From NCBI GenBank assembly GCA_000310025.1, contig FN649741.1:1436750-1475754 (forward strand): DNA of 39,005 bases, read 5' to 3'. A model generated the notes under the pieces. It did not search any database. It saw only the letters and a program-made list of their open reading frames with translations, and had not been told where the DNA came from. Shown here one piece after another: positions 9,001 to 39,005 of the stretch. The stretch comes from Ectocarpus siliculosus (Eukaryota > Sar > Phaeophyceae > Ectocarpales > Ectocarpaceae). Both the position numbers and the translations under genes were made by a program. Every line of letters starts with the position of its first letter. Within the stretch, counting starts at the first letter, position 1.

Positions 9001-12000
9001 GTTCGTCCGTGGTGCTTAGTCTCTTCTTAGTCATGTTCGTTGTGTTTGTTTTCACTACAGTTCAACAATACAACAAAGACAGAAAGTCCGTCTGTAGATT
9101 CCGTAGTTTTGTTTGCTGCTGTCTGAGTAAACGAGGCTACCCGTGCACCCGGGTGTTGCATGTAACACGATGGGCGCTGCCAGGTAATGGGCGTGGCCAT
9201 AATGTTTGCTGGAGTGCCTATGTGAGAACTTCCGGAGGTTTAGAGCGGCGAGGGTGCTTTTTCTATACTCTCCTCCGCCTCCTCGCTGAAGCCTGTCGGG
9301 TCGCGGTCGGGTCTGGCTCTTTTTTACAATATGGTTGTAAGCATATGTTGATTGTACTCATGCGTTGTTTTTTGGGGTCCTCTATTCGACCATTCCCCAA
9401 TTGATCTTAGTTTTTGTTGGGGGATGTTTTTCTTGCCGTGTATCGGGTATGGTTGTGTGTGAGCTCGAGGGATAGGGTCGACCGCAGCACACTCATGTGC
9501 GTAGGAAGCTAGCTATGCGAGGGGTTAACGCCTTCCTCACTCTCGGTAGCGATGCGCATCTCCCACGGCAATCAAAACAATACGGCAATCAATCATGATG
9601 TTCTTGTTCCTACAAATGCAAGTTCGCCCGGGAGTGTGTTGTTCTTGCCGAAAAGAGCGGGACTATATAAATTACCGGTCCGCGTTCTGGTGGTCTCGTT
9701 TATTCGGGTGTGATCGTGCGTACTAGTCAGATGATCAGCGAGCACGGTTAGCGAGGTTGTCGACAGCGTGGAGTGCCTCGCCACAAACAGTGGGGATACG
9801 CACGGATGGGCGCTGTGAGAAGTGCCCTCTTCTTTCTCTCCGCTGAGGGCCGGTCGAAGACTGATATTTCCGGGTGCGTGCGCGTCTGGTCGTCTCAACC
9901 TTCTTCTCGCGAAAAACAAGTCATGGTCTCCAACAACAATAATAGTCCACCTAAAAAAAAAAATAACAGCAGCGAGCAGGCACTGCTGGGTTCGTCCATG
10001 GATAGTTGTATTTTTGCTGTTCTCTACTCAGTAAGATCTTCTGATGGCTTTAGCATTTTTGTGACCACGGGCCGAGTCTTTGCTAGATTTTGGGATTAGC
10101 AACTAACACGAGTTTAATGTGAAGAAAAACAACAACAACAACAACAACAACGTCTACAATACATTCCCAAGTTCCCAAGCTTGGGTCTCTATCGACCTAA
10201 ATTCACCTTTTCCCTGTCCCTGTCATTTTCATTCGCATAGCCCACCCTTTGCCCGACAGAGTCTCAAATGTTGATCTCGAGCCACAGTGGTCAGAGGGAC
10301 GAGGGTAGGTGTCTTCTCGAGAGTGTATCCCTTGTCTGCTTTAGCTCTCTTCTCTCGCCTTTCGTCGCCGGTGGGGTCCCCACGACAACGCCAACCGCGA
10401 TTGATTTTTTTCTTGCTGTGAGTGAGTAAAGTGCATCCGGCTGCTGTATGAGAGACGATGGTTGCTGCCAGGGAATGGGTATGACAATGATGCATGCTGC
10501 AGTGCCTATGTGATAGCTTCCGGGGATTCAGAGCGGCGAGGAGGGTGATTTTTCTATGCTCTCTTCCGCCTCCTTGCTGAAGCCTGTCGGGTCTTTCTCA
10601 CTCTCTTGGCCTCGCTCTTTTTTCGTATTTTTATGTTTGTCGTTTTTTTTGTTTGTTCAAGCCTTGTTTTTTGGGGTCCCCCGCCCACCCATCGTGTAGC
10701 AATGCGCATCTAAACACGGACGGCAGGGTTATTATTGAGGTGCAGGAGTTCGTCTGTGGGTGGTTTTATAAGTCTGTTTGGTCTTGTTGTTGTTACTAAC
10801 TTCCGCCCCCCTACCGATAACGCCTTACTCGCGTAGCGTTGCGCATCTCCAACAGCAAGGAGAATGGAGTACGCATGATGTTACGTTGTACGTCATTCAT
10901 GTTGTGGGTTGATGTTTTTTGTGACGACAACTAAATGCAAGTTCGCCCGGGCGTTTTTTGCTCTACCGAGTGAGAGGGACTAAATTTACCGGTCGGTCCG
11001 CGTTCTGGTGTTCTCGTTCATTCGGGTGTGTGTGACAGTGCGTAGATAGTGCGTACTGGACAGATCATCAGCGAGCATCATTAGCGAGGAGATTGTTGAC
11101 AGCATCGAGTCCCTCGCCACAAAAAGTGCATACAGTGGTTGGCCCGATATAGTGGCATGTAGGGGCAATAGGAGAATATGCCACTTTTCAGGGCAGTTCT
11201 GAAGCTTTAGCTTCAGTCTCATATTTCAATATCCGTGGGTGGAACTTTTATTCGCATAGCCCACCCCTTGCCCGACCCGGTCTCAAATGCCAATCTCGAG
11301 CTACAGTGTAAATCTCGTGGCGCCCGAAGTATGGTTCGGTAGGCAATCGCGAACCATTACCCCTCCCCGAGTTTCAGGGGCTTCCACCTGCTGTGGCCGA
11401 CATGACTCGGCCTGGACTGTTCCTTGTCTGTGTCGCCATGGGAACGGCCGGTTGAACAGTGAAAGAGGGTCGTGCGTGCTGCGCGCCACAATAATTTGTT
11501 TTTTTTGTGATTTTCTTCGTGAGTGACCATGCTGCTATTGCAGAATTGCTTCAGGCAAGGTTGTGATATCGTGTCTGTCGCTTTGGGGTGCTCGCGTCGC
11601 GTAGTATGCGATGCGCGTCGCTTACTTTGTCGCCTGTTGTGTCGTTATACATGAAAAGCAACAGCAGCACAACAGTTGAGACAGACAACAACAGGCCTTT
11701 TTTCTCTCTTGCTGCATATATATGCATGGATGGGTGGTATGCATGGTAATAGTCTAAGCGGCATATTGCATGGGTGGCATACATCGAATAGGTGTTGATC
11801 CTTTTCGAGTCTGCTGCGTAGTCAGTCGTAACTTGAGCGATAAGGTAGATGGCAGCACAATCTTATTTACAACAGAGAGTGAAGTATGGCAACCAACAGT
11901 CTGCTGCTCTGTGCAGCGGTGCACATCTATCGCGGACGGACTAGTTCGTCCGTGTAGTCATGTTTTTTGTTCTCACTTCGTCACAGAAGGATGAAAGTCC

Positions 12001-15000
12001 GCACTACTCTAGTCTATCTAGTTCCAACTCGGCGACTTGTGGTGGTTGTGTTTGTTGTTGCTGAGCCCACTTCGGATACCGCCGTTCGGTACATATGTCT
12101 GACAGCCTGCGGTGGGCCAAAGGGACGAGAGTGAGTGAGTGTCTTCTCGAGAGTGAATGCCTTGTCTTCTCTCCGCTCTCTTCTTTTAGTCTCTCTCTCG
12201 TCTTTCGCCGGTGGGGTCCCAACCATATCGAACCACGTCAACCGCAGTGGTTTCGCATCTTGCTGAGTAAGAGACTACCCGTGCACCGGGCTGCTGCATG
12301 AGAGGCGATGTGCGCTACCTGTTTTATGTCAAGCAATGGACTTGGGGCCCTACCTAATCCTGGACATGCAGTGCTATGTGACATGTTCCAGCGGCCCAGA
12401 GCGAGCGACGACCACGGTGGGTTTTCTATGCTTCTTTTGCCTCCTCCCTCAAGCCTGTTCGCCTGGCTCACGTGTCTTTGATCTTTTCTTTTTTTTTTCA
12501 TGCTTTGTTTGTTGGGGTCCCCCAGCCACCCCCGCCAACCATTAATTTTTGTTGGGAGGGGTGTTTACTTGCCATGTTCATGACTGGGCCCCGGACTTTT
12601 TACTCGCACCCCGTCCATTTCCACTTGTCAACACACCACCACATCCTATTGTACCATGCCCAACACACGTCCAAGGCCTGGGGAATTTTGAAGCTTTATT
12701 TAGCTTCAGTCTCATCGTTCGAGTTTGAACGGCTTCCGCCTCCTGTGGCCGGCAAGAGTCGGCCTTGACTGTTCCTTGCCTGTTTCGCCATGGAATCGGC
12801 CGGTTGAACAGCGAAAAAGGGTCCTGCGTGCTGCGCGCCACAATTTGTTTTTTTTGCGTTTGTTCTTGAGTGACCATGGTAGGTAGTAGTACACATGCGG
12901 CTGCTGCTGCGGTTTCTGCTGTTTATGGTCGGAATGTGTTGCAATGGTCGTACGGTTATTATCGTAGTCAGGTTTGACAACAGTCTACTCGTTCGTATAG
13001 CGGTAGCGGTGCGCATCTATCGCGACGGCAAGCGCATTGAAATAATAGTTCGTCCGTCGTGCTTCTAGTCTACACAGACAGATAGTTGTTGCTGAGCGCA
13101 CATCGGATGTCGCCGTTCGTTACACGTGTTCAAGCCTGCGGTGGACCAGAGGGATGAGAGTGAGCGTCTTCTCGACCAGAGTTCATGCCTTGTCTTCTCG
13201 AGTCTCTCTTCCTTTAGTCTACCTCTCTCTCTCTCTGTTGCATTCTCGCCGTTAGGGTCCCCAATAACATCAAACGTCAACGGCAATCGTTTTGCGTCTT
13301 GCTGAGTACGAGGCTACCCGTGTACGTACCCGGCTGCTGCATGTGAGGCAATGGGCGCCGCCTCTTTCCGTCAAGCAATACGCATGGCCCCTACGGTTCG
13401 CCGCACATGCAGTGCTGTGTGACAGCTTCCAGCAGTTCAGAGCGGCGACGGTGTTTTTCGCCGGTAGAGCCCCAGAACAACGCGAACCCCCCGACTGTTT
13501 CATTGTTTTTGGGTCCCCCACTCGCCCACCCATCCATGAATGAATTTCAGCAGTTTTCGTTGGGGGGATGTTTTCTTGTCATGTCCATGACGTGGTGCCC
13601 CGAGCGAGTATGGCTCGGTAGGGACTCGCAAACCATGACCCCTCCCCGAGTTTGAGCATCAGCTTCGGCCTCCTGTGACGGACAAGAAGACCGGAAATTG
13701 TCTCGCCATACAAACAACAGCAGTTGGTCAGTTGAAAAAAAGAGGGTCCGGTCCGCCAAAGATTTTGTTTTTATGTTTCCCTGCCGACAAATAAAAATAT
13801 AACCTTGGCTTACGGCAGTGCAAATCTCATGGCGCCTCAAGTAAGTACGGTTCCGTAGGGAATTGCAAATCACGACCCCTCCCCGACTTTGAGTATAGCT
13901 TCCACCTCCTGCGGCGGATAAGACCGACGTCAAACCCTAGGTTTTGTCTGTCTGTGTCGCCATGTCGTCGCCATCCACGAACAGCAATTGGAGAGTCACA
14001 ATAAAGAGGGTCCGCTTCGCCACCAAGAAAAAAACAGTTTTCTTTCTCGATTCCATGTATCGGGTATATAGCGGGTAACCACGGGTCGGACGCACACCAC
14101 TGGCCCTCGTTTGTCGCCAATAATGAGGAAGTAGCGGGAGGGAGAAAAATATGTCTATTCTTGAGATGAGTTCCGTATGTGTCGCATCTCGTGAGGGAGG
14201 TATTCATCCAGCTCTTTCTTCTTCTCGATCATTTATTTGCACAGACCGCCTGCCGTTTCCCCCAAGGGAGACTTCCACCGCCAGCGGGGGGTCTGCCTCC
14301 GCCCGCCGGGCCGTCAGAAGGTCCGAATTCGAGGGCAGGGCGTTGCTGAGGTGTAGTTGTGTGCATGGGTTTTGGTCGAACCGCCCAGCCATTTTCGGGT
14401 TGGGGAAAGAAAAACCGGGTACTACTCCTCCGGGGGGTGAGTAGCCAAGATCGGGTGCACCCGGTGGAAAGGCGGTCAAGGTCGGGTAGGGGCGGGCGTC
14501 GGCCAATCAGATGGTGGCATGCGGCCGCTCCCAGCAGCATCTTGTAGGGGTACCCGATTATGGCCGTGTTTGGACCGGGTGTACCCAATTTTGGCCACTG
14601 CTCTTTTTTTCTTCATGGATGGGTAATGAGAGGTTTCAATTCAACTACTACTACTACTACAGTAACTTACTACTGGAGTATGGAGGGTGCTCGTTGTTCT
14701 TATGCCTGGCATGTACCGGCAGTGGTAGGTGACATAATATATCGCATCATCAATATTCACAGCTAATAATGTTAGTCCACGACGACGAGGATGTCAAACG
14801 ATAGGTTTGTTTCGGAAACCTATCGGTGCCAACGCCGCCCGGCCACGATTTCTGCTGTGGAGTAATCGAGCTTTGAAAATAAAAATTTGTTCAGGGGGTG
14901 TGATATCTTATGTCATCTACTCTGTGTATTGTATGTATACAGTAGAACGCTTTGTCGTGCTCGGTGGGCGAGCATGTCGCGGTGTGCGCCCTCGACTTTA

Positions 15001-16221
15001 TTAACGGCTAAAAAACTGGAAAGCTTCAGACAGGCAACGCGACGACACTCGTCGAGTTGCTATCACAACGACATTATTCGATGTTTATATTGGGTTCATG
15101 CACATGTCGAGATTGTGACAAAAGAGATTTTGATGCCACAATATGGGCGGTTCCACTTGTCAAGTTGCCACTTTATATGGGGCCACACGAATGGATGGGC
15201 GTTCTGAGAAGTGCCCGCTCTCTCCGTTCACAGGGCCGGTCGCGGCTGTTCTTTTCGGGAGCGCTCGGGCGACATGGATGTGTATCAGACCCTCCGGCCG
15301 AACATGCTGCTAGTTTTCAAGCGTCTACAGGACGACTTATGGTTAGGGTTGGTGTTAGTTAGGGTTAGTTTTTTTGGGTTGGACTTTGTTGGCTCAATGT
15401 ACTGTGTGTATGTATACATAGCTCGTGTGTGTGCAATATCTTTCCGTTTGCGTCAGTTGCTGACTGCGGGGCCCCGACCCTCCCTGCCGCGTGACCCTCC
15501 ATTCTTTTCTCAAGTGGAACGCGTGTTGTTGTTTTCGTTCGTTGGCGAATAAAAGGCATGTGTCCTACATCACGCAAAAAAAAAGAAGTGAACTTGGGAA
15601 TAGGACGGCGACGATATTCGTCGTCTTGCTTTTGAAGCAATTGTACAATAACAATACCAACCACATGCCAAAATTTCAGATTCCAACTCGAACAAAAATC
15701 GTGATGTAATTAATGTAATGCGCTTTCAACTATTCATGATCTTCTTGTTGTCTGGCCCACCCAGGTTGATGCCCTGTGGATGAAAATACACAATATAATT
15801 TTCTCACCTCCACTGGCTTTAATCCTGGATCCACATCGCCCGGAAACACGGTTCTCTGACCGCTCTCGTGCAAGAAGGATGGGCAGTTCACTCGCAGCCA
15901 AGTATAGTCAAAGTACGAGTTGTGCCCGTCATCCCATAGCACTTCTACCTGCCGTTCGTTTGCGAGAACCTGAGTTGAAGAAACCTTGGGGTCGTTGTTC
16001 CGCGTGCTGATCGCAGAAGTTGGCTGGCCCGCGGAAGCCGTAGCGGCGGTACCGAAGCGAACCGCGGGTGGGCGCAGCTGCTGCAGGCGCGTAGGAGACG
16101 GTTGCTGTGTTCCAGCGGCAGTAGCAGCAGCAGCAGCGGTGGAGGGTGCGATGTTTCTCAAGAACGCCGCACCGGCCCTTGACCGAAATAGGCGCGGCGT
16201 ACCCCGCAAGACATGAGCCAT
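1..16221 (-). CDS. gamma-butyrobetaine / trimethyllysine dioxygenase-like protein (multi-exon, 3' end outside window)
   Basis: This family uses Fe(II), 2-oxoglutarate and O2 to hydroxylate trimethyllysine or gamma-butyrobetaine in carnitine synthesis. Six exons are visible: 16221-15808, 3255-3091, 2420-2232, 1661-1575, 845-735 and 245-175. All internal joins are phase 0 with GT-AG borders, giving about 345 residues. Residues 1-30 are Arg/Ala-rich without acidic residues, like a mitochondrial presequence. Residues about 91-175 form the N-terminal DUF971-type domain, with two repeated signatures: VLWDDGHNSYFDYTWLR and ITWSDGHLSSYGTAWLR. The catalytic double-stranded beta-helix follows. Its HxD iron motif is H272-M-D274, followed by SAPGLQLLHC as in BBOX1 and TMLHE. 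The distal iron His and the 2OG-binding Arg would lie beyond the left edge. I cannot decide between the BBOX1 and TMLHE activities; the VPTTF motif of exon 6 leans slightly to TMLHE. The family call is firm; the splice sites are by eye. Confidence 0.88.
175..245 (-). CDS. dioxygenase gene exon 6 (last visible exon)
   Basis: 71 nt between acceptor GCTGAAG|GTC and donor GGGCAG|GTGAAG. It encodes VLSRVPTTFEKIRAAAPRVD, equivalent to the L.rVPaTFqKI block of the family. It ends in phase 2, so further exons must lie to the left of position 1. Confidence 0.75.
735..845 (-). CDS. dioxygenase gene exon 5
   Basis: 37 codons between acceptor GCGCAG|CTT and donor TTCGAG|GTAGTC. It encodes LLHCLEFDEGGKGGQTSFLD, then AFAAADHFREKFPEKFE. 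This matches the LLHC...GGe..f.DaF..a...r...Pe.F block that follows HxD in this family. Confidence 0.87.
1575..1661 (-). CDS. dioxygenase gene exon 4 (iron-binding HxD)
   Basis: 29 codons between acceptor ACAACAG|GCT and donor TTACAG|GTGAGA. The segment NMAYTNERLRMHMDLVYYES aligns with the conserved NVAYT...L.fHtDl segment. The HMD tripeptide supplies the first two iron ligands. Met replaces the usual Thr between them, which does not remove a ligand. Confidence 0.88.
2232..2420 (-). CDS. dioxygenase gene exon 3
   Basis: 63 codons between acceptor CACAAG|GTGGAT and donor TCTCAG|GTGAGA. The region ALYKTLRKVNRVGVVLLENA followed by HTLYGDMFDV corresponds to the start of the catalytic core in BBOX1/TMLHE (the xxVGIVRLxxA and YGxxxxV elements). 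Confidence 0.88.
3091..3255 (-). CDS. dioxygenase gene exon 2
   Basis: 55 codons between acceptor GCGGCAG|ACA and donor CCCAAG|GTGGGT, phase 0 on both sides. It encodes the second half of the N-terminal domain (SITWSDGHLSSYGTAWLREH, then CAWDAIPK). It is separated from exon 1 by the 12.55-kb repeat-filled intron. Confidence 0.85.
4878..6412 (+). repeat. long direct repeat, copy 1
   Basis: This copy is near-identical over long stretches to 12688-14070, most clearly 5046-5395 with 12722-13085 and 5523-6130 with 13087-13690. It has about 118 bp (5400-5520) that the other copy lacks. It lacks about 120 bp that the other copy has near 13715-13835. Confidence 0.85.
7805..8262 (+). repeat. R3 repeat block, copy 1
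   Basis: About 455 bp starting CTTCATGGATGGGTAATGAG. It matches 14611-15063 with only scattered substitutions and a few short indels. Confidence 0.88.
8355..8606 (+). repeat. R1 repeat block
   Basis: A copy of the block also found at 4925-5170, 11240-11495, 12720-12845 (truncated) and 10225-10287 (truncated). It runs from GCATAGCCCACCCCTTGCCC to GGTCCTGTGTGCTGCGCGCC. An internal core beginning GTATGGTTCGGTA and continuing into CGCAAACCATGACCCCTCC also occurs at about 6042, 6162, 13605 and 13848. Confidence 0.8.
9600..9890 (+). repeat. R4 repeat block
   Basis: Shares AAGTTCGCCCGGG, CCGCGTTCTGGTG, ATTCGGGTGTG, GTGCCTCGCCACAAA and GGATGGGCGCTGTGAGAAGT with partial copies at 10915-11150, 7245-7430 and 15183-15275. 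Confidence 0.7.
11195..11495 (+). repeat. R1 repeat block
   Basis: This copy includes the upstream GAAGCTTTAGCTTCAGTCTC lead-in shared with 4880 and 12690. The body runs through CCCACCCCTTGCCCGACC to GTCGTGCGTGCTGCGCGCCA. Confidence 0.8.
12688..14070 (+). repeat. long direct repeat, copy 2
   Basis: Partner of 4878-6412, same orientation, about 7.8 kb away. It lacks most of the R1 block (equivalent of 4915-5045) and the 118-bp segment. It keeps a roughly 120-bp segment with an A-run and GAGGGTCCGG that is missing from copy 1. Confidence 0.85.
14100..14600. other. GC-rich insert inside the repeat array
   Basis: This segment between repeat blocks (14070 and 14611) has no counterpart at the matching place in copy 1 (6412-7805), where the sequence is different and longer. 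It is richer in G and C than its flanks and contains GGGTAC and GGGTGCACCC motifs. Reading frames of about 100-120 codons are open on the minus strand. None resembles a known domain, so I do not call a gene. Confidence 0.4.
14611..15063 (+). repeat. R3 repeat block, copy 2
   Basis: Partner of 7805-8262. It has a small insertion around TATTGTATGTATACAG near 14930 and loses part of a CTACTGTACTACAA stretch. Confidence 0.88.
15808..16221 (-). CDS. dioxygenase gene exon 1
   Basis: The exon holds 138 codons from ATG at 16221 to the donor GAG|GTGAGA. It encodes the presumed mitochondrial presequence and the first half of the DUF971-like N-terminal domain, with WLRVNCPSFLHES corresponding to WLRDNCP in animal enzymes. 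The start was chosen as the first in-frame ATG, giving an Arg-rich, acid-free N-terminus. Confidence 0.85.
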
Positions 16222-16359
16222 TTTTGGGTTTGGCAGCAGGCAAACCTGTAGTCAATTTGCACTTCCTGATACGTTGAACGGATTACAGCAGAACCGATTG
16301 AAACAGAATCGGAGCACGTAGTGCAGGCTGGCTCTTCGTGCTTCGCCGCTGTGCGTTGT

Positions 16360-16433: not shown

Positions 16434-17984
16434 GACGACGGAGAGATCGATTGAAAAAAGTTTTCGAGGCGTGTTTCTGTGTGTAACCGATTTTTCCATT
16501 ATTTGCGGCGAGATTGGTTTCGAGTTTCGAAGGGCCGAAATAGACCCGAGAGGGCGAGACCTGCAGACAGCACCACCACAGGACACAGCACAGAGTGTTC
16601 ATGCAATGTGGTGCCTACCCTCTGTCGTTGGCGCGGGCTGCCGACGATAAATCTCTCCTAGCATAGCTCAGCCGAGATACAATGCCAGACCTAGGCTTCA
16701 ACTGCAGAACGGAGAGAGACAAATGGAGGGCAGGAGGCATCGTTCACAGTAAGAGAGCGTCATTCGACAACTGTAGTGGTATGCGTACTTCGAAGTGTGC
16801 CAGCCGAACACTAACCGGTTCAATATGATTAGGTCGATCGCAAACACGCTTGTACTCATGCACTCTATCGAAGCTGGTTTTTGCTCGTGTAGTGTGGCCC
16901 ACACCATCCGGTTGGCATGCGGCAAAGCTTGCTCTGAACCGCGTCGTCTTCCTGCAAGCATCACCTCCTTTCTTCCATGCATGGGCGGTTGAGCCCCAAG
17001 GGCTGAAACAGCTTCTTGCCACCAGCATCACATGCGGCGTTTTGTTGTTGACGCAAAGTCCTTTGAATTTTAATGCCCCCCTCGCTATTAGTAGACTACA
17101 TACTGTATGTATTGTGCTAACCCCTGCAGCAGAGACCAACAACGCAGAGCCGTCTGTCTCAACAAAAAAGTATCCTGTTGGTACAGAGTAGATCTACACG
17201 GTCAAACTGATGTATGTTGTTGTTTTTACCACTGGAGAATACAATACCCTTCCCTTCATCACGTTCCCATTCCATACTGTATAGGTTCGATCCGAGTACG
17301 GGCATGTGTTATCGCGTATGTAGAACACATCATTGTGTCCGTTGCACACGGTGAAGCAAGTGAGTATGTCGACCCGGTTCTCCCGGTCCCGACCGGCTTT
17401 GGCGTATTGCCGGTGGCAAATACATACCACGGCAGAGGCCGGTGCCCGCAAGAACCTTGGCTCCTACGGGTAACGTGTGGCAGTGTTTGCAAGTTGTTAC
17501 ATACAAGTCCGCATACCCTTTCTGTAGAAAAAACAAGGGCCGTGCTGCCCCTTCCACCGCTCGGTCCACACTCCCTAGCCTTTCCTCTATTGGTCTTGGG
17601 TGGAAGGGGGGCATTTCTTGTAGCTCGGACAACAGGGCGGCGTATCCTAATATGTAGACCTTTGTACAAATACCACTACACCGAGAGTTCTTACACACCC
17701 CATCCACCTGTCCGATACACATCAGCGCAACAAGCGTTCCTCCGTCCCCGCTCCGGAGATATAGCGTTGACCCCATCTTCGTGTTTGGGGATCCTTCATC
17801 TCTCTTCGGGTCGGAACTCAAACGCCATATTTCCACCCGCAAGCCAACATCCTCTATGACTTTTACCCGAGGGTGGGGGGGAAACGCTCCAGAGGTATCT
17901 TCTCGCGACCTTCCCTCCCAACATCGAAAGAAGCAATTCCCTCCACCGCACATCACCTCTAACACCAAACCCAACCCTATCGTC
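16434..17984. other. spacer between divergent genes
   Basis: The dioxygenase gene runs left and the STPG2-like gene runs right from here. Long overlapping ORFs are open on both strands (17107-17859 plus, 17330-18016 minus). They share no recognisable motif and have no splice support. The spacer probably holds the 5' leaders and promoters of both genes, but I cannot point to a specific box. Confidence 0.4.
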
Positions 17985-19356
17985 ATGTCCCGAATCGGTG
18001 CGCTTCCCAAAACCACAGCTGCCCCGCTGCAGGTGGACGTTGGACCCGGATCTTACGACGTCGCGGCAGGAGGCCCGCCGACGGAGGGTCGACCCGGCTA
18101 CGCCCCTTTCCTAAGCACGGCCGAGAGAAAGCTCGGCCCGGACACCGCCGCGGCCGACCTCCCGGGCCCCGGGTACTACTCCTCCGAGCCTGTTCAGCAC
18201 AACAGCGGCCTGTCCGGGCGACCCAGCGATGTCTTTCGATCGGGCACGAGCCGTTTTCGGCCCTCCAACGGTGGCCAGGGCGCAAACGACACCCCCGGTC
18301 CGGGCACGTACCTCGGTCACGAGGAGTTCGGGACCAGGGACCAGGGAATGAGCGGCAACTTTAAGGGGGACAGCGACAAGATCAAGTGGGTGCGGGTGCC
18401 GACGGCGCCGTCCATCCCCGGCCGGGAGCAGAGCTACGGGTACGAGGAGGGCGATCAGGGGGAGCTCGTCATGCAGCGGCCCGTGGAGCTCGGGCACAGC
18501 GGGCGCGGGGACGATCGACCGGGGCCGGTAGACTACCAGCCCAGGGTCGAGTACACCCGCCGCTGCCCGGCGGCCATAGACTTCTCGAAGGGCGAGGACC
18601 GACTGGTGGCCCTCAGCAAGGCGAGGGCGTCCACCACCCCGGGGCCCGGCCACTACAACGCCGCCAGGGGGCTCGGAGACCCCGACGACGGCCTCGACAT
18701 CGGCAGGGCCATCCACCGCAAGCGGCAGCGGCCCACGGCCTCCTTCCACTACGGGACAAAGCGAGATAGACAGCGCAAGACGCGGGACACCGCCGCCCCG
18801 GGACCGGGGGACTACAAGATCCCGAGCGGGCTGGACGTCCGGCGAGACCCCGGCCGCCGAGACCTGTCCTTCTTGTCGACCTCTCGCCGGTTCGACGAGC
18901 CGGCCACCGGCGCCGGGAGCCGGGCCCCCGGGCCGGGGTCCTATGTGACCGCGCCCAGCGACTTCGACCGCTGCCGGGCGAAGGACAATCGGGTTCGTCC
19001 GCGGCGCGCCTCATTCACGGCGCCGGTGGGATTCCAGTCCACCACCCTTCGTTTCGCTGGCGACGGGAGGAGGGGTGGCAGCGAGATCGGGCCGGCGAGC
19101 TACAGCCTCGGTGGGATGGCTGAAGAGATAAGCCGCAAGGGCTCAGGAACCGGAAGAAACGTGGGCGCCTTTGGGTCGACGGCGAGGAGATTTCCGGTCG
19201 CGGGGGGCGGTCAGCCCCACTTGCCCAGGCCAGGGGCGTACGAACTCGGCGTTGCTGGGGGAGTTGATAGAGAGGAGGGGCAAAATACGCGGCCCTCGGT
19301 TCCGGTCGGTCCGAGCGGAAAACGGTTCCCGAGTGCCTTGTCAGCGTTTGCATCAG
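17985..19356 (+). CDS. STPG2: STPG2-like gene exon 1
   Basis: 457 codons plus one nucleotide, ending GCATCAG|GTGGGC. It carries nine of the PG-rich repeats and two further SHIPPO signatures of the type FGSTARRF and FLSTSRRF. Confidence 0.85.
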
Positions 19357-20491
19357 GTGGGCATAACGTTTGCATCGGCTTCGTCTTGCTCCTGATGTTG
19401 ATCGGGTCGTGAGTGGGCGCAAGCTAATAGGCGTTCTCTGCTGGCCACTTGAGTGCACATTTGGCGAGCGGGAAGCATCTATACAGACGTGCTGCTATCT
19501 CAACTTGGGAATCGAATGAACTCGAGTGTGACCGGGAGATCGAACGGGCGAAATATGCAAACGTCGTCGTTCTCTAGACCTGTAGATTCTCGCTCGCAGT
19601 CGAGCTCGTCATCAAGTTCTGATCAGCAAGCACTAATATTACGACCACCTCGAGCCTGATATCATGCTGATCGACGGACAAATTTGCCGCAAAATGCTTG
19701 CAATATTTTCGGGCGAGTTCTTTCCTCACACGAAGTACTTCACCTCCACCGATCAACGCATGCATGTCGACGAACCAACCGAACGCGTTAGCTACCAAGA
19801 GGTTCGCCCCACCGTTTTCTGCAAACCCTGGTCCGGCACCGGGCCAGTACGAAGTCAGACCACTCGACAAGCCTAGAGGGGTTTTGCCTCTCGGAAAGCA
19901 GTCGAAGAACCGCTTCGAGGTATGTAAAGTAGTTGCACATGCCCTGCTATCGGCATGCTGCCAAATCGGTTGTGACAATTTTCCGTTTGGAGGTGCCCCG
20001 CCCTCACTAGACATGTACGGTACTCACGAGAATTTCCTGCAGTCCTCGAAAGAGTTGTAGCTGTGTACTAAGTGACGTAGCAGCATCCTCCGACGCTACA
20101 CACAAAAGGACGTTAAGTACGTTTTGTGCCTTGGGGAAGCAGATATTTACTGGCGGAAAGTCCCGCACGACTGCGACCACGCGCCGTCCAACTACCTCCG
20201 GCCTAACTTCAGAGCACAATCTACGCGCTAGCCAACGTACTCTCCCGCCGTTCGATGACATCACGGCAACGACCGTCCGTCGTACAGAGTGCAAAGAACG
20301 CTGTGCGGCCGGGGCTTGGACCGGGGAGCTACGACGTGAGGGACGTGGTGCAGCTCGGAAGGGCTCGCTCGCGGAAGAACATTATGGTCAGCTCGCAGGC
20401 TCGATTCACGGACCCGAGCGCGCCGAGTTCGAACAACCCCGGTCCAGGGTACTACGGCACGGGGATGGTGTACGGGAATCTGCTGAAGCAG
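17985..20491 (+). CDS. STPG2: STPG2-like sperm-tail PG-rich (SHIPPO) repeat protein
   Basis: Proteins of this family bind or line axonemal microtubules. Exons are 17985-19356, 19792-19919 and 20288-20491, with phases 1 then 0 agreeing at both joins, plus a possible terminal exon at 20598-20696. About twelve PG-rich repeats are visible: VGPGSY, PGPGYY, PGPGTY, PGPVDY, PGPGHY, PGPGDY, PGPGSY, IGPASY, PRPGAY, PGPAPGQY, GLGPGSY, PGPGYY. The N-terminus (VGPGSYDV, then GYAPFLSTAERK and PGPGYY) has the spacing typical of STPG2, which is why the ATG at 17985 is preferred over the in-frame ATG at 17781. The joined protein is about 568 residues, against about 460 in animal STPG2. Exon 1 is strikingly GC-rich. 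The family call is firm; orthology to STPG2 is an inference. Confidence 0.88.
19792..19919 (+). CDS. STPG2: STPG2-like gene exon 2
   Basis: The acceptor GCGTTAG|CT completes an Ala codon in the right phase. The junction then reads FASATKRFAPPFSANPGPAP, a textbook SHIPPO sequence. The donor is TTCGAG|GTATGT. Confidence 0.82.
20288..20491 (+). CDS. STPG2: STPG2-like gene exon 3
   Basis: 68 codons between acceptor CGTACAG|AGT and donor AAGCAG|GTGGGT. It encodes RPGLGPGSYDV and NNPGPGYYGTGMVYGNLLKQ. The last motif is typical of the C-terminal end of STPG proteins. Confidence 0.82.
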
Positions 20492-25609: not shown

Positions 25610-26702
25610 TTTACAGTCCAGTCATCGCCTTCGCGCCCATCCAGTGAATGGGTAGTCTCTCTGTGTGTGTATTTATTTTTTCTTAATCCAGTCGCCCTGC
25701 CCTCCGCCGTCCGCCCTTTGCCCCGACCACCGCCGACGCGTTGAATTTCGCACGGTGGATGGAGGAAGCACTCTCAGCAAATCCTCTGATGTTCTTGGCG
25801 CGGAATCCTATACCTTTTGAATTGCTGTGCGAAGAGTGTGCGTGCGGTTTTGGGTTTTGGAAGGGACAGACAGGTATGCGTGTGGACTGCTGGATCTTTG
25901 CGTACGTCTGGGTGGGGTAGGCGGCGGTAGCCTAGAACCGTGCGACCACGGTATGCCCGCGCTGGTGTCTTTTGTCTCTCGAGGATCCGCTCAGAGTGCT
26001 TCCATGCAAGGACCGCTTGAGCCGAGACCACTCCCTCGTCTGCACCAAGAGCGGCGCCTCAACCTTCCTCCACAATTCGATGGTTCGGGTAATCCTCAAG
26101 ACACACTGCGCGAGTGTCATGTGCCATCGCCGTTGAGAATTCTTCCCCTTTTACCACAGGCACTGGTAAGGGAAAGGGGCTGCAATACAAGATGGATTTG
26201 GTAATCTCCCCAGGATTACACGCAGGAGAGAAGGGAAAGGAACTCTGCACCAAGTCCATTCTTATAGACGTAGCAATCGTCAACCCATCCACAGGTCGAG
26301 CATCGTCAAGTCGATCCAAAAGCCAGGATCCGCCCTCGAAGATCGAGCCGTAAGTAAGTCTTATCACTATTGCGGGAATTTTCAACCCGCCTAGATCTAC
26401 CCTCCTTACTGCTTGCTGCTTTTTCAACGTATGGTGGTCTTGGTGAAGGCACCAATCGACTGATCGTGGCTATCGCCAACCACTTGGCACACGAAGCTTT
26501 TTGCCGGGGGAATTTCGGCAACGAAAGAGCCTTAATTCGCCTGAAAGCTTTTCACACTAACAGGATTCATAGATGGTTTCCCTTCGAGCTACAGCTCGTT
26601 TACTGTCGATGCGAACTCACGATGTGTTCAAACGTCATGGGCTACTGAACGACCAACTTCCACCAGGGCCAATCGGTTGGGATCTCTGCGACAACGATAA
26701 TA
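25610..26702. other. spacer, possibly with a retroelement relic at 26110-26650
   Basis: On the plus strand, frames at about 26114-26350 read LQYKMDLVIS and CTKSILIDVAIVNPSTGRA. A shifted frame at about 26380-26650 reads AFSTYGGLGEGTNRLIVAIA. This resembles the C-terminal region of some non-LTR polyproteins (R.Dlvi ... llvDv.v..P). Stops and a frame shift interrupt it. This is weak similarity from memory of the pattern only. Confidence 0.3.
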
Positions 26703-27068
26703 ATGAGTGTAGACGAAGGAAAGGGAAAGGGAAGAGAGGAAGACGAAGACGACGATGGAGGAGGAGGACAGCATGGAGGAGTGGAAGAGAGCAAAGGGTT
26801 TGAGCCAGATGGCCTTCCCAAAAACAAAAAACGCAGGGCTAGGGAAGAACTGGCAAGAGATTGTTGTCAAAATGAGGATCAGAATGATGGTAGCGTCAAC
26901 AAAGGGGATGATGGTGAAATAACTCCTAAACGAACTCGAGTACAAGGTAATAGCCTTGGTAGACGCGTGCAGTTTTCTTCTGTTGCCACTGTTTCTGTCT
27001 TTGATCCGAAGGATTGTTTAGCCTCCCCCATGCTGCCCCCTCACGGGGTCCCAGTTCATGGCAGATAG
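26703..27068 (+). CDS. small acidic protein with RVxF motif, hypothetical
   Basis: A single-exon frame of 121 codons. Residues about 6-30 are Glu/Asp/Gly/Lys-rich, KNKKRRAREE at about 41 looks like a nuclear localisation signal, and RRVQFSSVATVSVFDP near residue 87 contains RVQF, which fits the RVxF docking motif for protein phosphatase 1. The GA-rich start (GAAGG/GGAGGA repeats) may keep the frame open by chance. I recognise no family. Confidence 0.35.
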   Translation: MSVDEGKGKGREEDEDDDGGGGQHGGVEESKGFEPDGLPKNKKRRAREELARDCCQNEDQNDGSVNKGDDGEITPKRTRVQGNSLGRRVQFSSVATVSVFDPKDCLASPMLPPHGVPVHGR

Positions 27069-27267
27069 AAGTGTTTTGTGTTTTCAACCGCAGTAAGGCT
27101 GACGTCTTTTCATTGGTCAGCCGGTTAGCGCGGTCAATACCAACAAAGACACACACACACGAAGCAGATATAAGTGTCTTGCCTTTTCAACCGCACTGTA
27201 AGACTGACGTAGTTTCATTGGTCAGCCGGTTAGCGCGGTCGATGCTAATAGTAAAGACACACACGAA
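27061..27267 (+). repeat. 103-bp tandem duplication with TGACGT-ATTGG and tRNA A-box-like motifs
   Basis: Copies are 27061-27163 and 27164-27267. Each has GTTTTCAACCGCA or CTTTTCAACCGCA, then TGACGT, six bases, ATTGGTCAGCC, GGTTAGCGCGGTC and an AAAGACACACAC run ending GAAGCAG. TTGGTCAGCCGGTTAGCGC is close to the D-arm/A-box of a tRNA gene with one base missing. Confidence 0.85.
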
Positions 27268-28548
27268 GCAGGTAGTTGCTCGGTTTACAACCCCGGGAAA
27301 GCGGAGGAAGCACTCAGTAAGCTAAACACCCAACACCATCTCGTGGCGGGTGTCATCGTCATTGCTGTTGTTGCTTTGGCGTTTGGGGAGAGGGATAATC
27401 GGTAATCGAAACCTTAGCACCTGGCCAAGGGTACGCGTGAAAATCATTTCAAGACACATAATAGGCCTATCAATCGAAGATCGGGGTCATTTGTGGGGGG
27501 GGACAACTTTGGTTGGGACGGCGGGGGCATATAGCCATGTATCATCTGAGCAGCACGCAGCCCACGCAAGGAAAAACAACTCCGAAATCCATCTTGGGTG
27601 CAGCAGCCTCCCGCTATCTTTCTTACTTGGAACAGACCAACGAGTGCAACCACGTCTACTCTTCCTCTAGTCAGGTTTCAGGCACTTCACGCTGACTCCA
27701 TGCACTCGCAGATGATTGACCAACAGATACTTCATCTTCCGCTCCTCACAAAGCTCAGATTTCAACGCCTCTCTCTGCCTCTCTGCAATCTTCTGCATCC
27801 ACGCCGGGGCGTCGGCGGTTCGGGGTCATCTGTTTGGGGTTAGGGCATATACCCATCCATGTATCCCCGGGTTTTCTGCCGTTGCCTCGGTGCCTTGGCG
27901 TCCCGATCTCGCATGGTGTGCATCACCACTAGCGCTGCTGGCGCTGTGATTTAGTGGAGAGCCCCGAGAGATGGCAGACACCCCGGTCATCTTCGCAATC
28001 TTAGGGTTAGAAACCCCAGGGAGCCGCAATAATAGGCCGCCAGTCGCCCGTGTGGCCTATTGGTCCAGCCAAACGTAACCCTACAAAACATGAAGAAGAC
28101 CAAGGCTACGGGTAGATTATTTGCGACACTATGTTCCCTGTTGTGCAGTGCAATGTAGAAGAGGCGGCAACGGCAAGTTTGCAAGGCAAGTGTGGTTCAA
28201 TGTGAAAGCTGGTCAATGACCTGTTCCAACCGAATTTGACGGATACTACTACCAAAGTATATTTATACTACCCTCCTACTTTTTTTATGTTGGCTCGTGG
28301 GGTTTTGGAACTGAAGTTCTACGGAAAGGTAGATGTACCGACGCCCGGTTGTTTGTTGTGAAGACAAAACACTTCGTACCCCCGGGCCCCTTCGAAACCA
28401 TCGAGCAGTCTCCGGCGGCCGAAACGATCCTACAACCGAGGCTGGTGTGGAGCTTTACATAACACTCTTGCCATTTCGAGACATACATACTGAGACGCAA
28501 CGGAGGCCGGCCACAAACCGCGGCTTAGTATATGGGCTATAAGATGTA
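27268..28548. other. spacer with no supported gene
   Basis: I see only short ORFs without motifs. A loose direct similarity exists between 27480-27545 and 27818-27870 (GGGGTCAT, then GGGGGCATATAGCCATGTAT against GGGCATATACCCATCCATGT). TTAGGG occurs near 27838 and 28001. Confidence 0.4.
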
Positions 28549-28549
28549 C

Positions 28550-28577
28550 CAGCTGTCGCTACAACGAGCGACAGCTG
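28550..28577. repeat. short perfect hairpin
   Basis: CAGCTGTCGCT, a six-base loop ACAACG, then AGCGACAGCTG: an 11-bp perfect stem. No gene adjoins it, so a role as terminator is not supported. Confidence 0.85.
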
Positions 28578-28848
28578 ATAGATGTAACTGTCCTCAGACG
28601 TGTGCGTCCACGGGCGGAAACAGAGAGTGCAAACACCACACACCTGATACTACACCTGCTGTGCGCTGGCGTGAGAGCTGTGGTAACGTAAACTTTCACC
28701 TCTGCCGGCTACCCCCCCCGTGTCCACATCCCGCTTTTGTGAACATAGTCTACATACCCCCCGCACACCATGTTCCGTCTTGTTTTGATCGTTGGTTCTC
28801 CAACTCCCAGCGAAACAGCAGGACACAAGTCGGCTCTGGTCACCTAGC

Positions 28849-29140
28849 GCACCAATCGTCATGGCACCACTTCGAGCGTGTGCTCCATTGCGATATCTCT
28901 GGGCGTGACAGCTGTGTTAGGCATGGGTGGCGAGTGTGGGAAGACCTTCGCGGCGGCGTGGAATCCAAATCGTATTTTTGGCCCGGGCAATCGGGCCGCA
29001 TCGCCAGGCGAAATAGCCAAACCGGATTTCACATCGCCACGATGCTCTCGGCGCATACAGAACCAATGCCCAACACAACCATCACGCCCCTCGACACCAC
29101 CATGGAGCACACGCTCGAAGTGCGATGGCGATCGGCGTGC
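28849..29140. repeat. 292-bp imperfect foldback (inverted duplication)
   Basis: The left arm (28849 to about 28985) and right arm (about 28995-29140) are reverse complements at roughly 70-75% by eye. ACTTCGAGCGTGTGCTCCAT is exact in both arms. GGCGTGA, TGTGTT and GGCAT are aligned around it. The centre is CCCGGGCAATCGGGCC. An 83-codon frame is open across much of it on the minus strand, probably by chance. Confidence 0.8.
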
Positions 29141-29279
29141 TAGGTTTCGAGAACAAATGTGGTACTGTGCTCATATTTCTGGCAGTTGAATGCGGCGGTA
29201 AACAAAAATGCGCGACAGCAATACATGGCCTCATCACACCACAGAGAGTCCACCGGCATCGACCCCAGATGTTGTCGCC

Positions 29280-29380
29280 CGCTGCGCGTGTGTGTCGCCT
29301 GTGATGCGTACGCTGTCTGCTGTGCGTGTGTTGTCTGCTGTGTGGTGTCGCCCGCAGTGCGTGTGTTCTCTGCTGCAATC
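29280..29380 (+). repeat. degenerate short tandem repeat
   Basis: TGCGTGTGTTGTCTGCTGTG-like units of about 20 bp are repeated three to four times with variation, in a stretch without a supported gene. Confidence 0.6.
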
Positions 29381-29554
29381 CGCTGTGTACCCCGAAAAAG
29401 AAAACAAGTGCATCTGCTGACCCCTGTAGTCTAAGATCAGGTCGTGTACTCAAAAACCTAGGTTTAGCGAACAGACGTGACAAACTCTTTGGTCCTATAT
29501 TGCGGCGAGACTTCAAGCCAGACAAGAAATCTCGCTTCGCTCGAATACAACAAG

Positions 29555-30105
29555 CCCATACTACGTGAACCCATGCGTTGGTGATGACCTTCACGGGGAC
29601 CTTGCCTACGTGAGATTGGAGCGAGATTCCCCTGAAGTTGTTGCAGTCTCAACCACCCTGCTTGTACAACAACACCTTGATGGTTGCGTCCTTCGACTCT
29701 TGGGGGGTCTCTCCTCCGTTCGACACCTCACCGAGGATGGCATGGAGGTGCTCCACGAGGATGGGTTCCTCGTCGTCGTCGATCTTGAGCTACTCCGCAG
29801 GGAGGGAGTCATTGCCATGTGCTTTCCAGTTTTGCAGTCCTTTCGTTACCCGCGTTCCACCTCCTTGACGTCTGGCACCGATCCCAAAACAAACGTGGAG
29901 TGGCACCTGTCGCCGGTCGCTGCGTCACTTGCTCGATGCTGTCTGGGGTCAGGGTGGGGGACTTGGTGTTGAGGAGGGGGCCGACAAACCTCGCCCATCG
30001 ATCGAGGATGTCGTCCTTCCTCCCGAGCAGCACACCATTCTCGTCCGCAACGGGCTGCTTTCCTCCCGCTTGTTGCCTCCCACTGAGACCCACTGATCTC
30101 TTCAT
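29555..30105 (-). mobile_element. broken LINE-type (non-LTR) reverse transcriptase fragment
   Basis: Minus-strand pieces in shifting frames follow the order of the N-terminal part of an RT domain. First comes DENGVLLGRKDDILDRWARF, then VGPLLN. Next are VTKGLQNWKAHGNDSLPAEL and GGETPQESKDATIKVLLYKQ. Last is NCNNFRGISLQSHVGKVPVK. These correspond to D..G.ll.d...il.RW..hF..LLN, the k.gKa.G.DglpaElLK block, vP..WkdA.i..l.KkgD and nyRgIsLls...Kvl.kvi. At least one stop (after LLYKQGG) and several frame shifts break it, and it stops before the YxDD catalytic motif, so it cannot be active. Confidence 0.8.
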
Positions 30106-30827
30106 TCAGGTGTTTTGGTCGAGGCCTGACAGATCGCGGTGATTGATTTTCGCTCGCTTCGAGTATTTTTGGTCACATATCTGTCCAGGTGGGCATATGT
30201 GCCCGATTTGCCTGCTGCTGCAGCCACTCCCTTACACGCTTGTTTGTGGGCCCTTCACGACGTTGTCTTCAAAATTGTCCTTTATCACTCGACGCGCTTC
30301 CCGCCGAATATGAGGGTTCGAGAAATAAAGACACGCTCGCGCGCGGTTTCATACACGATTACAATGACCCAACATTTCAGGTCCGTGCGATATTCGTAGA
30401 CCCTACTTTTCGTCCTTATGGCAACTAACTGTAGTGCTTGATGTTTTAGACACTCACGCCCGGTTGGCCGTTGGGGGAAAGAGCAGGGGGTGCCACGCGC
30501 ACGACAGCTAACAACGTGGGGGCTCCGAACCAATCATCCTCTGGTCGTACCGCCCAACGCACATCTATGTATGTGCAGGGCACCTGAAACAGTCACCATG
30601 TCGTTCTACCACCAGATCCGACTTCACACGAACATGCGACACATATTTCTTCCTTCCCCAGTAAAAAAACAGGGCCAAGGGGTGGATCCCCCCGCTTATG
30701 GTAAGGTGGGAAAACTTGCCATGGAAGCTGAGACACGCGGACTACAGTCTACTCCTCCTCCCGTCATGCTACCTACTGTACCATGGTTGACTTGCACCTG
30801 GAGCGGAGAGTAGGCGGGTGATGATGT
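30106..30827. other. spacer before the palindrome array
   Basis: No supported gene. An isolated CTTGCCATGGAAG at about 30715-30727 and a CCATGG at 30781 look like decayed outliers of the array to the right. Confidence 0.4.
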
Positions 30828-31352
30828 ACTTCCATGGAAGTATCGCCATGACATCTGTGAACGTTTCCATGGAAGTTGCTTCTGATTACTTCCATGGAAG
30901 CTTGGGGCGGATGGCGTACTTCCATGGAAGTATCGCCACGATACGTTTGGACAGCTTCCATGGAAGCCGCATATTTTGACTTCCATGGAAGCTGGGGCCG
31001 GGTGGTGTACTTCCATGGAAGTAGAGCGATGACGCTTCCATGGAAGCTAGATATTATGCTTCCATGGAACTTGTCCGATTATGGCCCACTTCCATGGAAG
31101 CACGTGGAAGTGGGTGTAATCGACTTCCGTGGAAGCGTTCCAAACTACTTCCATGGAAGTTACCAAACTTTTATGGAAGCTCCAACTTCCATGGAAGTTG
31201 TTGCTGACCCCCCAGCTATGTGAACTTCCACGGAAGTCGCCCACACTTCCATGGAAGTCAGTTTCGAGCTTCCATGGAAGTTAAAATCAATGAGCTTCCA
31301 TGGAAGTATGTACTGCTTCTATTGAAGTAAACATCTACTTCCTCCATGGAAG
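30828..31352. repeat. cluster of about 20 copies of the palindrome CTTCCATGGAAG
   Basis: Thirteen copies carry the exact 12-mer CTTCCATGGAAG. Seven are variants with one to four changes or an insertion. Most are extended to ACTTCCATGGAAGT or GCTTCCATGGAAGC. Centres lie at 30834.5, 30869.5, 30894.5, 30924.5, 30960.5, 30985.5, 31015.5, 31040.5, 31064.5, 31094.5, 31129.5, 31153.5, 31173.5, 31191.5, 31230.5, 31251.5, 31274.5, 31300.5, 31321.5 and 31346.5. Spacers of 4-27 bp are much more variable than the palindromes. A higher-order period of about 90 bp (three palindromes) is visible at the left: 30828, 30918 and 31009 are each preceded by GTAC or TGTAC, and spacers such as CTTGGGGCGGATGGCG and CTGGGGCCGGGTGGTG are related. 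Confidence 0.95.
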
Positions 31353-31379
31353 CTACACACATATGGACAGTATGTAGAG

Positions 31380-31500
31380 GACTGGGCCACACACGGGAAA
31401 ATAGGGGGAAAACAGAAGCTTGAAAGCCTCATGTGTTGGCCTTCTCGTGTGTGACCTCGGCCGATACGAACGGTTCGGACAGATTTGGCAGACGACAATA
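31380..31500 (+). repeat. dispersed repeat module M1
   Basis: Contains GCCTCATGTGTTGGCCTTCT and CCTCGGCCGATACG, then CGGACAGATTTGGCAGACGA. Related modules are at 37350-37465 and 37676-37745. Confidence 0.75.
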
Positions 31501-32500
31501 ATTTGCGGTTATCCCAAGCCTACTGCCGATAAGCCCGTGGCAAAACTCTGTCACAGAAGTCCGCGGGAATATCCGGAACGGTTGGGATTTTGGTGAGGGA
31601 CAACCGCCTCTTTTGTGCCTTTTCGCACCGCCCCATCTAACGAATATTGTCGAGCGAGGAAAACATAGAGGGTGAGACACAAAGGACAAAAACCTTCGCG
31701 TGTGGAGCGCACGCCGCACACAGGCAGTCAATACACAATCTGACATCTTATCGAGCGTCACAAGCCACATGTTTTTGCAGGCATACCTGCTGTGCAGCAG
31801 CGCAGGGGTGAGTGAGGCGGCGGCGTGTAGGGAAAAAAAGAAAAAACTCTCACGAAAAAGCACCTCATTTTTCGCGTGGTCGCCTCTCTCGTGCACACTG
31901 CCCACAGTTGGCCACGAGCTATAACAAACAAACCCGACGCCCTCTACCGCGTGTGCCTACGAGCTCCGTTGGGCTACAGCAGTGGGAATCTTTCCCCTGT
32001 CTCGGTTTGGGAGGATGAAAAACTCGCACACCGGCAGGCAAGCGGAATCGTCCGTTGTTGTTTTTTTCGTTTGATCGGCAAGTAACCCCGCGACCCATCG
32101 CCACACATCCACAGCAGCTCACCCCAGCACACTCCAGCGGGTGCTCTGAGGAGGGCTCTGAGTGTTTTCTGGCGGGCTCGTGTCTCTGAGGATGGTGCGT
32201 TTCACAACTCTGACTCTGTGTTATGTATATACGCGCCGCAGACTCAAAGTTGGGCACTTCGGTTCGTCAAGGATTTATTTTTTGCCGTGCCGTGGTGGAC
32301 TTGGCGGGATGGGGGGTGAATACATTCAACATCTGGAAATTGTGTACGTGTTACCGTGTGCAGAAATTCGTCTCGGGCGCGGCGTAACCTCCAAACGAAC
32401 GTATTTTGAGGATACGGGCATATTGTGAGGATACGGACTTATTATGGTGCTTGTGATACCGTCTAGACTATACGTACGGTTGTTGTGTAGTAACCAACTT
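31500..32500. other. spacer with no supported gene
   Basis: Only short ORFs without motifs. A small direct repeat GAGGATACGG (32407 and 32427) is the only structure I see. Confidence 0.4.
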
Positions 32501-32504
32501 AAAG

Positions 32505-32955
32505 CAAGCAAGCGTGTTTTCGTGGTCGGAACGTCGGTCAGACCGTCGCCAATCCGAGTCCCCGATTGAATCCGTTGACGGGCAGACGGAGTGCGTTGTA
32601 CGCGCTAGCTTCACTCGGAGAGTGCCGAAACGGGGAATACTGCGGGCCAAATGCAGTGTACTACTGCTGTACTACTGTGGTACTGTGGGCATCGAATTCG
32701 ACCAAAATGCGGTGGAATAGGTACCGGTTGAGGGCCGCGAAAAAAAAGGGCAGGTTTAATTAAGGAATAAATAATAAAAATGCTGTCTGGGAAATCGTAG
32801 ACATACAGGTACTTTTCTGACGCTATGAATCCATTGCTAATCTGTCTCAGACTCTTTTCTATGATGGAGATGGCTTCGTGGTGTCATATTAAGAAAAAAA
32901 AAAAAAAACACACACACAGAAAGACTACCCATTCGAGATATACCCGCAGTCGACC
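32505..32955 (+). repeat. repeat modules M2, M4 and M3 downstream of the RGS gene
   Basis: M2 (CGTGTTTTCGTGGTCGGA, 32512) recurs at 37645. M4 (GCGGTGGAATAGGTACCGG, 32708) recurs at 37874. M3 (AGAAAGACTACCCATTCGAG, 32919) recurs at 37538. The order of modules differs on the two sides of the RGS gene. Confidence 0.8.
32805..32907 (+). repeat. inverted repeat, left copy
   Basis: Contains TTTCTGACGCTATGAATCCA and CAGACTCTTTTCTATGATGG and ends in an A-run. The reverse complement of 38575-38684 matches it closely over about 100 bp. Confidence 0.9.
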
Positions 32956-37920: not shown

Positions 37921-39005
37921 CACTCACTGCTGTACAGAATGACCCACGCCCTCAGCGAGGAACGCCCCAACGCCCATCCATCACAATTGCCGCGACTGCT
38001 GTTCCAAAGAACCAATCGGACCGCGCTACACACGACATCCCGTCACGATAAAAACCATGAAAAGGTTCAGTGCTCAGGCCATTTCCCGCATTTGGCTCAC
38101 TGCCAAAAGTCAAAGCCACGCGTACCAGCGGGAGCCACACACACACTGTGAAAGCCGCGCCTCACTTGGCGGCTGTGGGAGAGGCACGTAGTAGGCGAAT
38201 CGTCGTATACATAAACGAACGCTATCCTTCAACTGAGACGTTCCGCGGGTAAACACCCTTTTCTACAGCAATATGCAGGTTTGGTGATGGTATACTAACG
38301 CATCGGATGTCGTATAACGCGCGGTTCTTCTACTACATACATACAGTGTTTGTTGCTTCCTCGCCACAGCAGCCCTCCTCCCTTTTAGCACTCACGTGCC
38401 GTTCCGTCGCTCTCCTTGGTCGGGTTGGGAGGCCGGTGTGTGGGTGTGTGTGTGCTGAGTGACAGCAGTGCGCCTACAACTGCAACAACAGCAGTGCAGC
38501 GGCTGTGGTACGCTGCGGGTGGCGTGTGTGGCTGAGGTTTGGGTAGAGAAACACAGACAGAGTGATTTTTTTACTTTTTTTTCTTAGTACAAGTAAGTAT
38601 GACACAACGAAACCATCTCTATCATAGAAAAGAGTCTGAGAAAGATTAGCAATGAATTCATAGCGTCAGAAAGTACCTGCCTTTTCGCCCCGGTCCGGGT
38701 TCATTTTTGTTTTTGAAAAAGATCGCCGCCTCTACCTTTGAGATAGCCCCGGGGCGTTTTTGCACCACCAACCGCCGGTAGGTACAGGCTATTGTAGGCC
38801 AGCCAAGAAGCTGATAAAATGGTTGAAAGCCAAATACACCACGATTTTTACGAGATGGAACCTGAAAGTTTGACATGTGGTTCGTTCGTATTTGTAGCAC
38901 AACAAATACAACTGCAAGCCGTACTTTATACAAGGAAGGGCGATCGACGGCGACGATCGACGGAGCGACGGCGGCGCGATCGACGAAGGCGGCCCAAGGC
39001 CGCCC
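37921..39005. other. spacer to the right edge, no supported gene
   Basis: Apart from the inverted repeat at 38575-38684, I see only short ORFs. The last 70 bases hold repeated CGATCGACG units (38940, 38954, 38979) and a GGCGGCCCAAGGCCGCC hairpin. They may be the start of a repeat continuing outside the window. Confidence 0.4.
38575..38684 (-). repeat. inverted repeat, right copy
   Basis: Partner of 32805-32907 in opposite orientation. The two copies enclose the whole 7TM-RGS gene, about 5.7 kb apart. Confidence 0.9.

Follow-up and report, generated by a model that had tools for sequence, protein, structure and literature searches.

Repeated subterminal sites are a known feature of several groups of DNA transposons. 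In the hAT superfamily (Ac/Ds, Hermes, Herves) they are described together with 8-bp target-site duplications, short inverted termini and many short non-autonomous copies. The Ac transposase binds repeated AAACGG motifs (PMC3260210), the Herves transposase binds repeated subterminal sites (PMC3143072), and in Hermes a quasi-palindromic AAGT/AAGC pair is bound by two BED domains, an isolated AAGC being bound weakly and AAGT requiring an AT-rich neighbour (PMC10368747). For the Mutator-like element Muta1 of Aedes aegypti, the account gives 12-bp subterminal repeats, nine per end, spaced evenly 3-4 bp apart in 145-bp inverted repeats, with 8-9 bp duplications and over 300 non-autonomous derivatives (PMC5225508). 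CACTA/EnSpm elements carry dense subterminal repeats recognised by TNPA, and in soybean Tgmt* 24 such repeats make up 12 palindromes within 732 bp (PMC2613891). Zisupton elements are reported to make 8-bp duplications (PMC12730594), and Ectocarpus is reported to contain giant KDZ elements that carry nested insertions (PMC12477816). Finally, the IS4-type element ESvi-1B of Ectocarpus siliculosus is described as single-copy, with inverted termini of 18 bp, 8-bp duplications and a Fanzor gene (PMC3627910).

The locus considered here belongs to a new family of this already known kind. The window, that is the whole stretch of E. siliculosus DNA that was analysed (39,005 nucleotides), holds an array of short palindromic dyads at 30829-31352, which we read, with a probability of roughly 0.8, as the subterminal region at the right end of a DNA transposon of the cut-and-paste type (class II) whose insertion generates 8-bp target-site duplications, the dyads being putative sites for a dimer. 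Our recount of the array agrees with the preliminary description of about 20 palindromes: 20 sites, with no strand assigned, lie within two mismatches of CTTCCATGGAAG, 13 of them exact and seven with one or two changes. The window as a whole holds 24 such sites, against a mean of 1.55 and a maximum of 5 in 100 shuffled windows. Genome-wide (189 Mb, 492 contigs) exact CTTCCATGGAAG occurs 1212 times and the reversed-word control six times. That the genome is very probably a brown-algal one is also borne out by the EsV-1-7 domain, which according to PMC12477816 has proliferated in brown algae: all 150 candidates scored, out of 880, were matches, while 14 control genomes yielded none.

Start-to-start distances of the first dyads are 35, 25, 30, 36, 25, 30, 25, 24, 30, 35 and 24 bp, reproducing exactly the series quoted earlier; across the whole array they range from 18 to 39 bp, and the spacers measure 6-27 bp rather than the 4-27 bp first given. 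The higher-order period of about 90 bp is also real, TRF reporting a 91-bp unit repeated 2.2 times at 30826-31023 (forward strand). Less settled is the proposal that spacings fall near multiples of five, or half-turns of the helix. Among 181 distinct spacers the best period is 4.9, and none of 2000 jittered controls was equally strong; stricter removal of redundancy moved it to 6.5 (n=65) or 6.25 (n=41), values that we think are an artefact of the stricter filter. The period is thus unstable between data treatments, and helical phasing of the dyads is unproven.

The boundary of the transposon lies just beyond the array. Among 108 matches to window 30600-31600, nine stop at query base 785-786, corresponding to window 31384-31385, and when these nine right ends are aligned they agree up to that point and diverge beyond it. 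Read inward, the right tip is CAGTCCTCTACATTACTGTCCATATG; the window version, CAGTCCTCTACATACTGTCCATATG (25 bases, 31360-31384, reverse strand), has one base fewer than that of most relatives. The other tip, GGGTAATATACATTATTGTCCATATGG, is found in inverted orientation in six loci, with an array present in five, and other subfamilies have the tips C[AG]ATCTCCTACACTATTTGACAAATG and GGGTAACCTACACTATTTGACAAATGG. The two ends share, inverted, a terminus core, TACATTA.TGTCCATATG in subfamily A or CCTACACTATTTGACAAATG in B, right tips beginning CAGTC, CAATC or CGATC and left tips GGGTA(A). The inverted termini are about 26 bp long, imperfect and partly asymmetric. A 20-base core of GGGTAACCTACACTATTTGACAAATGG matches 233 places at three or fewer mismatches, compared with nine for a control. 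Ten loci chosen by terminus core, drawn from 100 listed places of the 233 with facing pairs favoured, all carry dyads inside at least one terminus (10/10), although the right end of one of them, L044, is without dyads.

The window copy itself is a left-truncated member of subfamily A (26003-31384, forward strand; right terminus at 31384), with 91-92% identity to a relative, C76, in which both termini are present, together with an 8-bp duplication, ACACAGCA. The C76 element starts about 1.6 kb further left, with an array and a tip of its own that the window copy lacks; the latter has lost its left end and is probably immobile. Elsewhere in the window, the region 4910-15071 contains repeated blocks of 130-300 bp that are 85-99% identical, and part of this region matches DNA lying to the left of the C76 element. 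A GBBH-like_N match spans 15733-16251, and a second, weaker match covers 2956-3933. There are also a 584-aa open frame at 17658-19409 with a match to the sperm-tail PG-rich (SHIPPO) repeat, perhaps a gene for a flagellar protein, and a pair of 75-nt inverted repeats, 93% complementary and 5.7 kb apart (32814-32888 and 38598-38672).

Target-site duplications were scored in 16 two-ended elements. At the strict position an 8-bp duplication is perfect in five (C12a, with GACCAAAT, C26, C66, C23b and C3) and, if the tip may shift by up to three bases, in seven, the two additions being C76 and C15; under neither rule did any of 240 mismatched element pairings reach 8/8. With the shift, three further elements match at 7/8, as do six of the 240 control pairings. 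In nine of the 16 the duplication is imperfect or absent. The elements differ in size, C76 measuring 6.8 kb and C12a 24.8 kb with nested repeats. Beside the shortened left tip of C12b a GAGTGAAA duplication can be recognised by eye, outside the script's count.

Within these elements the arrays are set at a fixed offset. They start about 33 bp inside the tip, usually with 6-31 dyads per end, and in 11 of the 16 two-ended elements the distance from each tip to its outermost dyad is 30-34 bp (tip positions for C3, C5 and C25a were placed by hand). The five exceptions are C12b, with its shortened left tip, C7, C5, C25a and C25b, the last of which has dyads at a single end. Terminus-like places flanked on both sides by 300 bp or more numbered 65; of these, 35 (in loci L007, L038, L047, L057 and L059) were excluded as tandem runs or as lying beyond the array, most of these being flanked by dyads on both sides. 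Among the 30 isolated termini, the inner 620 bp hold 6-24 dyads in 27 cases, a figure biased upward because most loci were picked for holding dyads, and zero dyads in the outer 300-620 bp in all 30. Those without inner dyads are L011 3339 (which has an exact core), L019 1448 and L044 8179.

What could so many dyads do at a transposon end? Each dyad may be regarded as two inverted half-sites (GGAAGY) on which a dimer would sit, most likely of the transposase or otherwise of another DNA-binding protein encoded by the element. Many occupied dyads at both ends could mark the element and help to join its ends for excision. Most likely the dyads are predicted docking sites of a dimeric transposase, both the bound protein and its action being what we infer. 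Among the ideas of the preliminary description, the one that fits best is a series of sites bound by a dimeric protein; that description overlooked the transposon end at 31384, its relatives and the second array.

The dyads might alternatively be a minisatellite-like amplification that rides in transposon ends and has no binding role, which we consider improbable. Local tandem duplication is evident in the 91-bp unit, and terminus-like cores too are tandemly amplified in C25, C30, C74 and C144. Against this stand the fixed tip-to-array distance across diverged subfamilies and the conservation of the dyads over the spacers between lineages: when a consensus built from seven right arrays of subfamily A is set against one from four older relatives, 14 of the 208 positions in dyads differ and 81 of the 288 in spacers (p=7e-10), although apparent dyad conservation is inflated since the alignments are anchored by the dyads. 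When a third copy is used to define the dyads, they are slower than spacers in 12 of 14 mutually non-independent comparisons (p 0.009 to 2e-12), the two exceptions being the pairs of recent copies, C76 vs C12b and C268 vs C42. As an observation in its own right, the terminus core also occurs in tandem, with a unit length of about 75 or 116 bp, as though ends of the transposon had turned into satellites (L047 297-1477; L057 5486-8496; L059 5043-5301; C25:533007-533551; C16:3123315-3124127).

Much less probable still is a function for the host in situ, as an enhancer, replication origin or matrix attachment element. Clusters of motifs with two-fold symmetry are a typical mark of dimeric regulators, and the word is far over-represented in the genome. 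However, the arrays track transposon ends, and in recent copies the dyads change as fast as the spacers, so that resident copies are without clear constraint: the counts, which are small, are 8/214 dyad and 15/314 spacer positions for C76 vs C12b (p=0.67), 6/192 and 4/306 for C268 vs C42 (p=0.19), and 6/214 and 17/347 for the window vs C76 (p=0.28). Dyads are thus better conserved than spacers between lineages but not among recent copies. This is as expected of a sequence required for transposition, drifting after insertion, rather than of one required by the host; the replication and matrix ideas of the preliminary description also find no support in the isolated termini, with their zero dyads outside.

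About as improbable, and if anything a little more so, is the notion that the array is a structured nucleic acid, either a hairpin transcript feeding small RNAs or cruciform DNA. The RNA fold of the array is far more stable than those of 100 shuffles (z -18.4), since each dyad is able to pair with all the others; any run of self-complementary words would fold strongly. A single dyad, however, has no loop of its own, and the window yields no Rfam match at gathering score. The flanking bases tell further against it. In 425 distinct exact dyads a purine precedes the dyad 402 times and a pyrimidine follows it 404 times, giving the site consensus RCTTCCATGGAAGY, whereas the two outer bases are complementary in 171, compared with 200 expected (p=0.005, toward fewer). 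The outer-base pairing noted previously is thus present in the window, in 8 of its 13 exact dyads, but does not extend to the set of 425. Among variants with two changes, 4 of 186 are still palindromic; with covariation of this kind absent, the suggestion of a hairpin transcript finds no support. A purine/pyrimidine preference without pairing across the dyad favours protein half-sites over hairpins, and is explained by half-sites read independently by a dimer and not by selection for base-pairing.

A CRISPR-like adaptive spacer archive, the label first attached to the cluster, shares with the array only repeats better conserved than spacers and has a negligible probability: the distances of 18-39 bp leave no constant repeat-spacer unit, spacers recur through tandem duplication and are not unique (as the preliminary description correctly argued from the duplication), the arrays lie within elements that have inverted termini and target-site duplications, and a two-dyad pattern matched 0 contigs in a viral collection.

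Returning to the transposon reading, which superfamily does the element belong to? The 8-bp duplication is the length seen in hAT and Zisupton and lies within the 8-9 bp of Mutator-like elements; it fits these three and the IS4-type ESvi-1B, and argues against CACTA. As no transposase has been tied to the family, all four are candidates. The likeness to hAT extends, as those elements are described, to the inverted termini, which are short, the repetition of short motifs in subterminal position and the many short non-autonomous copies. The half-site GGAAGY moreover ends in AAGY, comparable to AAGT/AAGC of Hermes, a likeness that is a lead only, given the weak binding of isolated AAGC and the AT-rich neighbour needed by AAGT in the Hermes account. 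However, the left tip here begins with GGGTAA. The hAT tip consensus is YARNG, from which the right tips CAGTC, CAATC and CGATC and the left tip GGGTA all depart. The hAT transposase domain PF05699 has 20 matches in the genome, none of them within 100 kb of the arrays or termini among the places listed, six of the 20 being on contigs without a listed place; the hAT genes at C354:24097, C9:3999427 and C11:2345616 look intact. Muta1 is alike in its 8-9 bp duplications and 12-bp subterminal repeats; here the repeat is palindromic and the window spacers are 6-27 bp, in contrast to the even 3-4 bp reported for Muta1. For KDZ, the likeness consists of the 8-bp duplications of Zisupton and the reported presence of such elements in Ectocarpus; the KDZ transposase domain PF18758 has 0 matches here, but the search was equally silent in its controls. 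ESvi-1B, compared by description, is likewise brown-algal, with inverted termini and 8-bp duplications, but differs in being single-copy and in its 18-bp termini and Fanzor gene. CACTA/EnSpm elements resemble the family in their dense subterminal repeats, which form palindromes in Tgmt*, and differ in their 3-bp duplications and CACTA tips, as against 8 bp and GGGTAA / C[AG][AG]TC here.

The search for an encoded transposase covered several interiors. Pfam recognised none in 20 of the 33 listed window frames, including two of the three frames of the element, nor in ten frames scanned from C12, C76 and adjacent DNA and six from C23, and none was seen on reading the interiors of C25b, C30 and others by eye. 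A coding-like stretch in the window element (26561-27065, forward strand, with one in-frame stop and one frame change) is common to C76, the window, C268, C30, C9 and C296, and occurs also in C10 and C144. There are, however, about 930 first-look candidates genome-wide, many with an open frame, so the stretch is not specific to this family; two long open copies lie away from termini, with a single stray dyad core in one and zero in the other, and it is taken as a dispersed repeat and not as the family's gene. C12 (24.8 kb) and C25 (7.9 kb) were likewise set aside as candidate autonomous copies, their interiors holding frames that by eye are Copia polyprotein; C12 also contains a 325-bp direct repeat. 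Two C74 ends that lie 37 kb apart were not accepted as a pair, as their flanks fail to match by eye. Nested in the 24.8-kb C12 element, at L015 7577-8851, is a 424-aa frame which, judged by eye, resembles a tyrosine recombinase; it has no Pfam match and adjoins an FNIP-repeat frame.

DUF7869, which we take to be a Sola transposase, was a further candidate. Sola-1 makes a 4-bp target-site duplication, unlike the 8 bp here. Of 12 DUF7869 matches, two (C23 and C296) have arrays nearby; six loci were fetched, and the dyad core is absent in five, while in L026 an array abuts a copy. In C23 the DUF7869 gene is about 5 kb inside the array, and a link there is possible. Overall, with five of the six fetched loci lacking the dyad core, it seems to be another element's gene. 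DUF7869 also occurs in a large repeat family that carries, on the opposite strand, a frame that by eye is ParB-like in one copy (L029 2-505 and 4096-5372; L026, L027, L028 and L030); this repeat family resembles the Sola1-1 element described from Ectocarpus (PMC12477816).

A bolder proposal, which we put forward as speculative and rather unlikely, is that the family represents an unnamed brown-algal superfamily whose transposase recognises arrays of fused 14-bp sites with two-fold symmetry, as many as about 30 at each end; the number of dyads may then determine how strong an end is, and the end cores would also have been amplified into satellites.

No published description of the array was found in the open-access literature searched, and neither "subterminal" nor "palindrom" occurs in the main text of PMC12477816; the family may be present in the supplementary library of that paper, perhaps as an unclassified DNA element. 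With the transposon reading, an odd cluster of palindromes becomes a defined and testable transposon end, with numerous palindromic sites at both tips and at a fixed offset. The families explain a large part of the conspicuous 12-mer seen across the genome, since of the 1212 exact copies of CTTCCATGGAAG 588 fall within the window or the loci read and the other 624 elsewhere in the genome, and should be useful for annotating brown-algal mobile DNA. If the acting enzyme is found, these arrays would offer a system for learning how many sites a transposon end needs and how end sites diversify.
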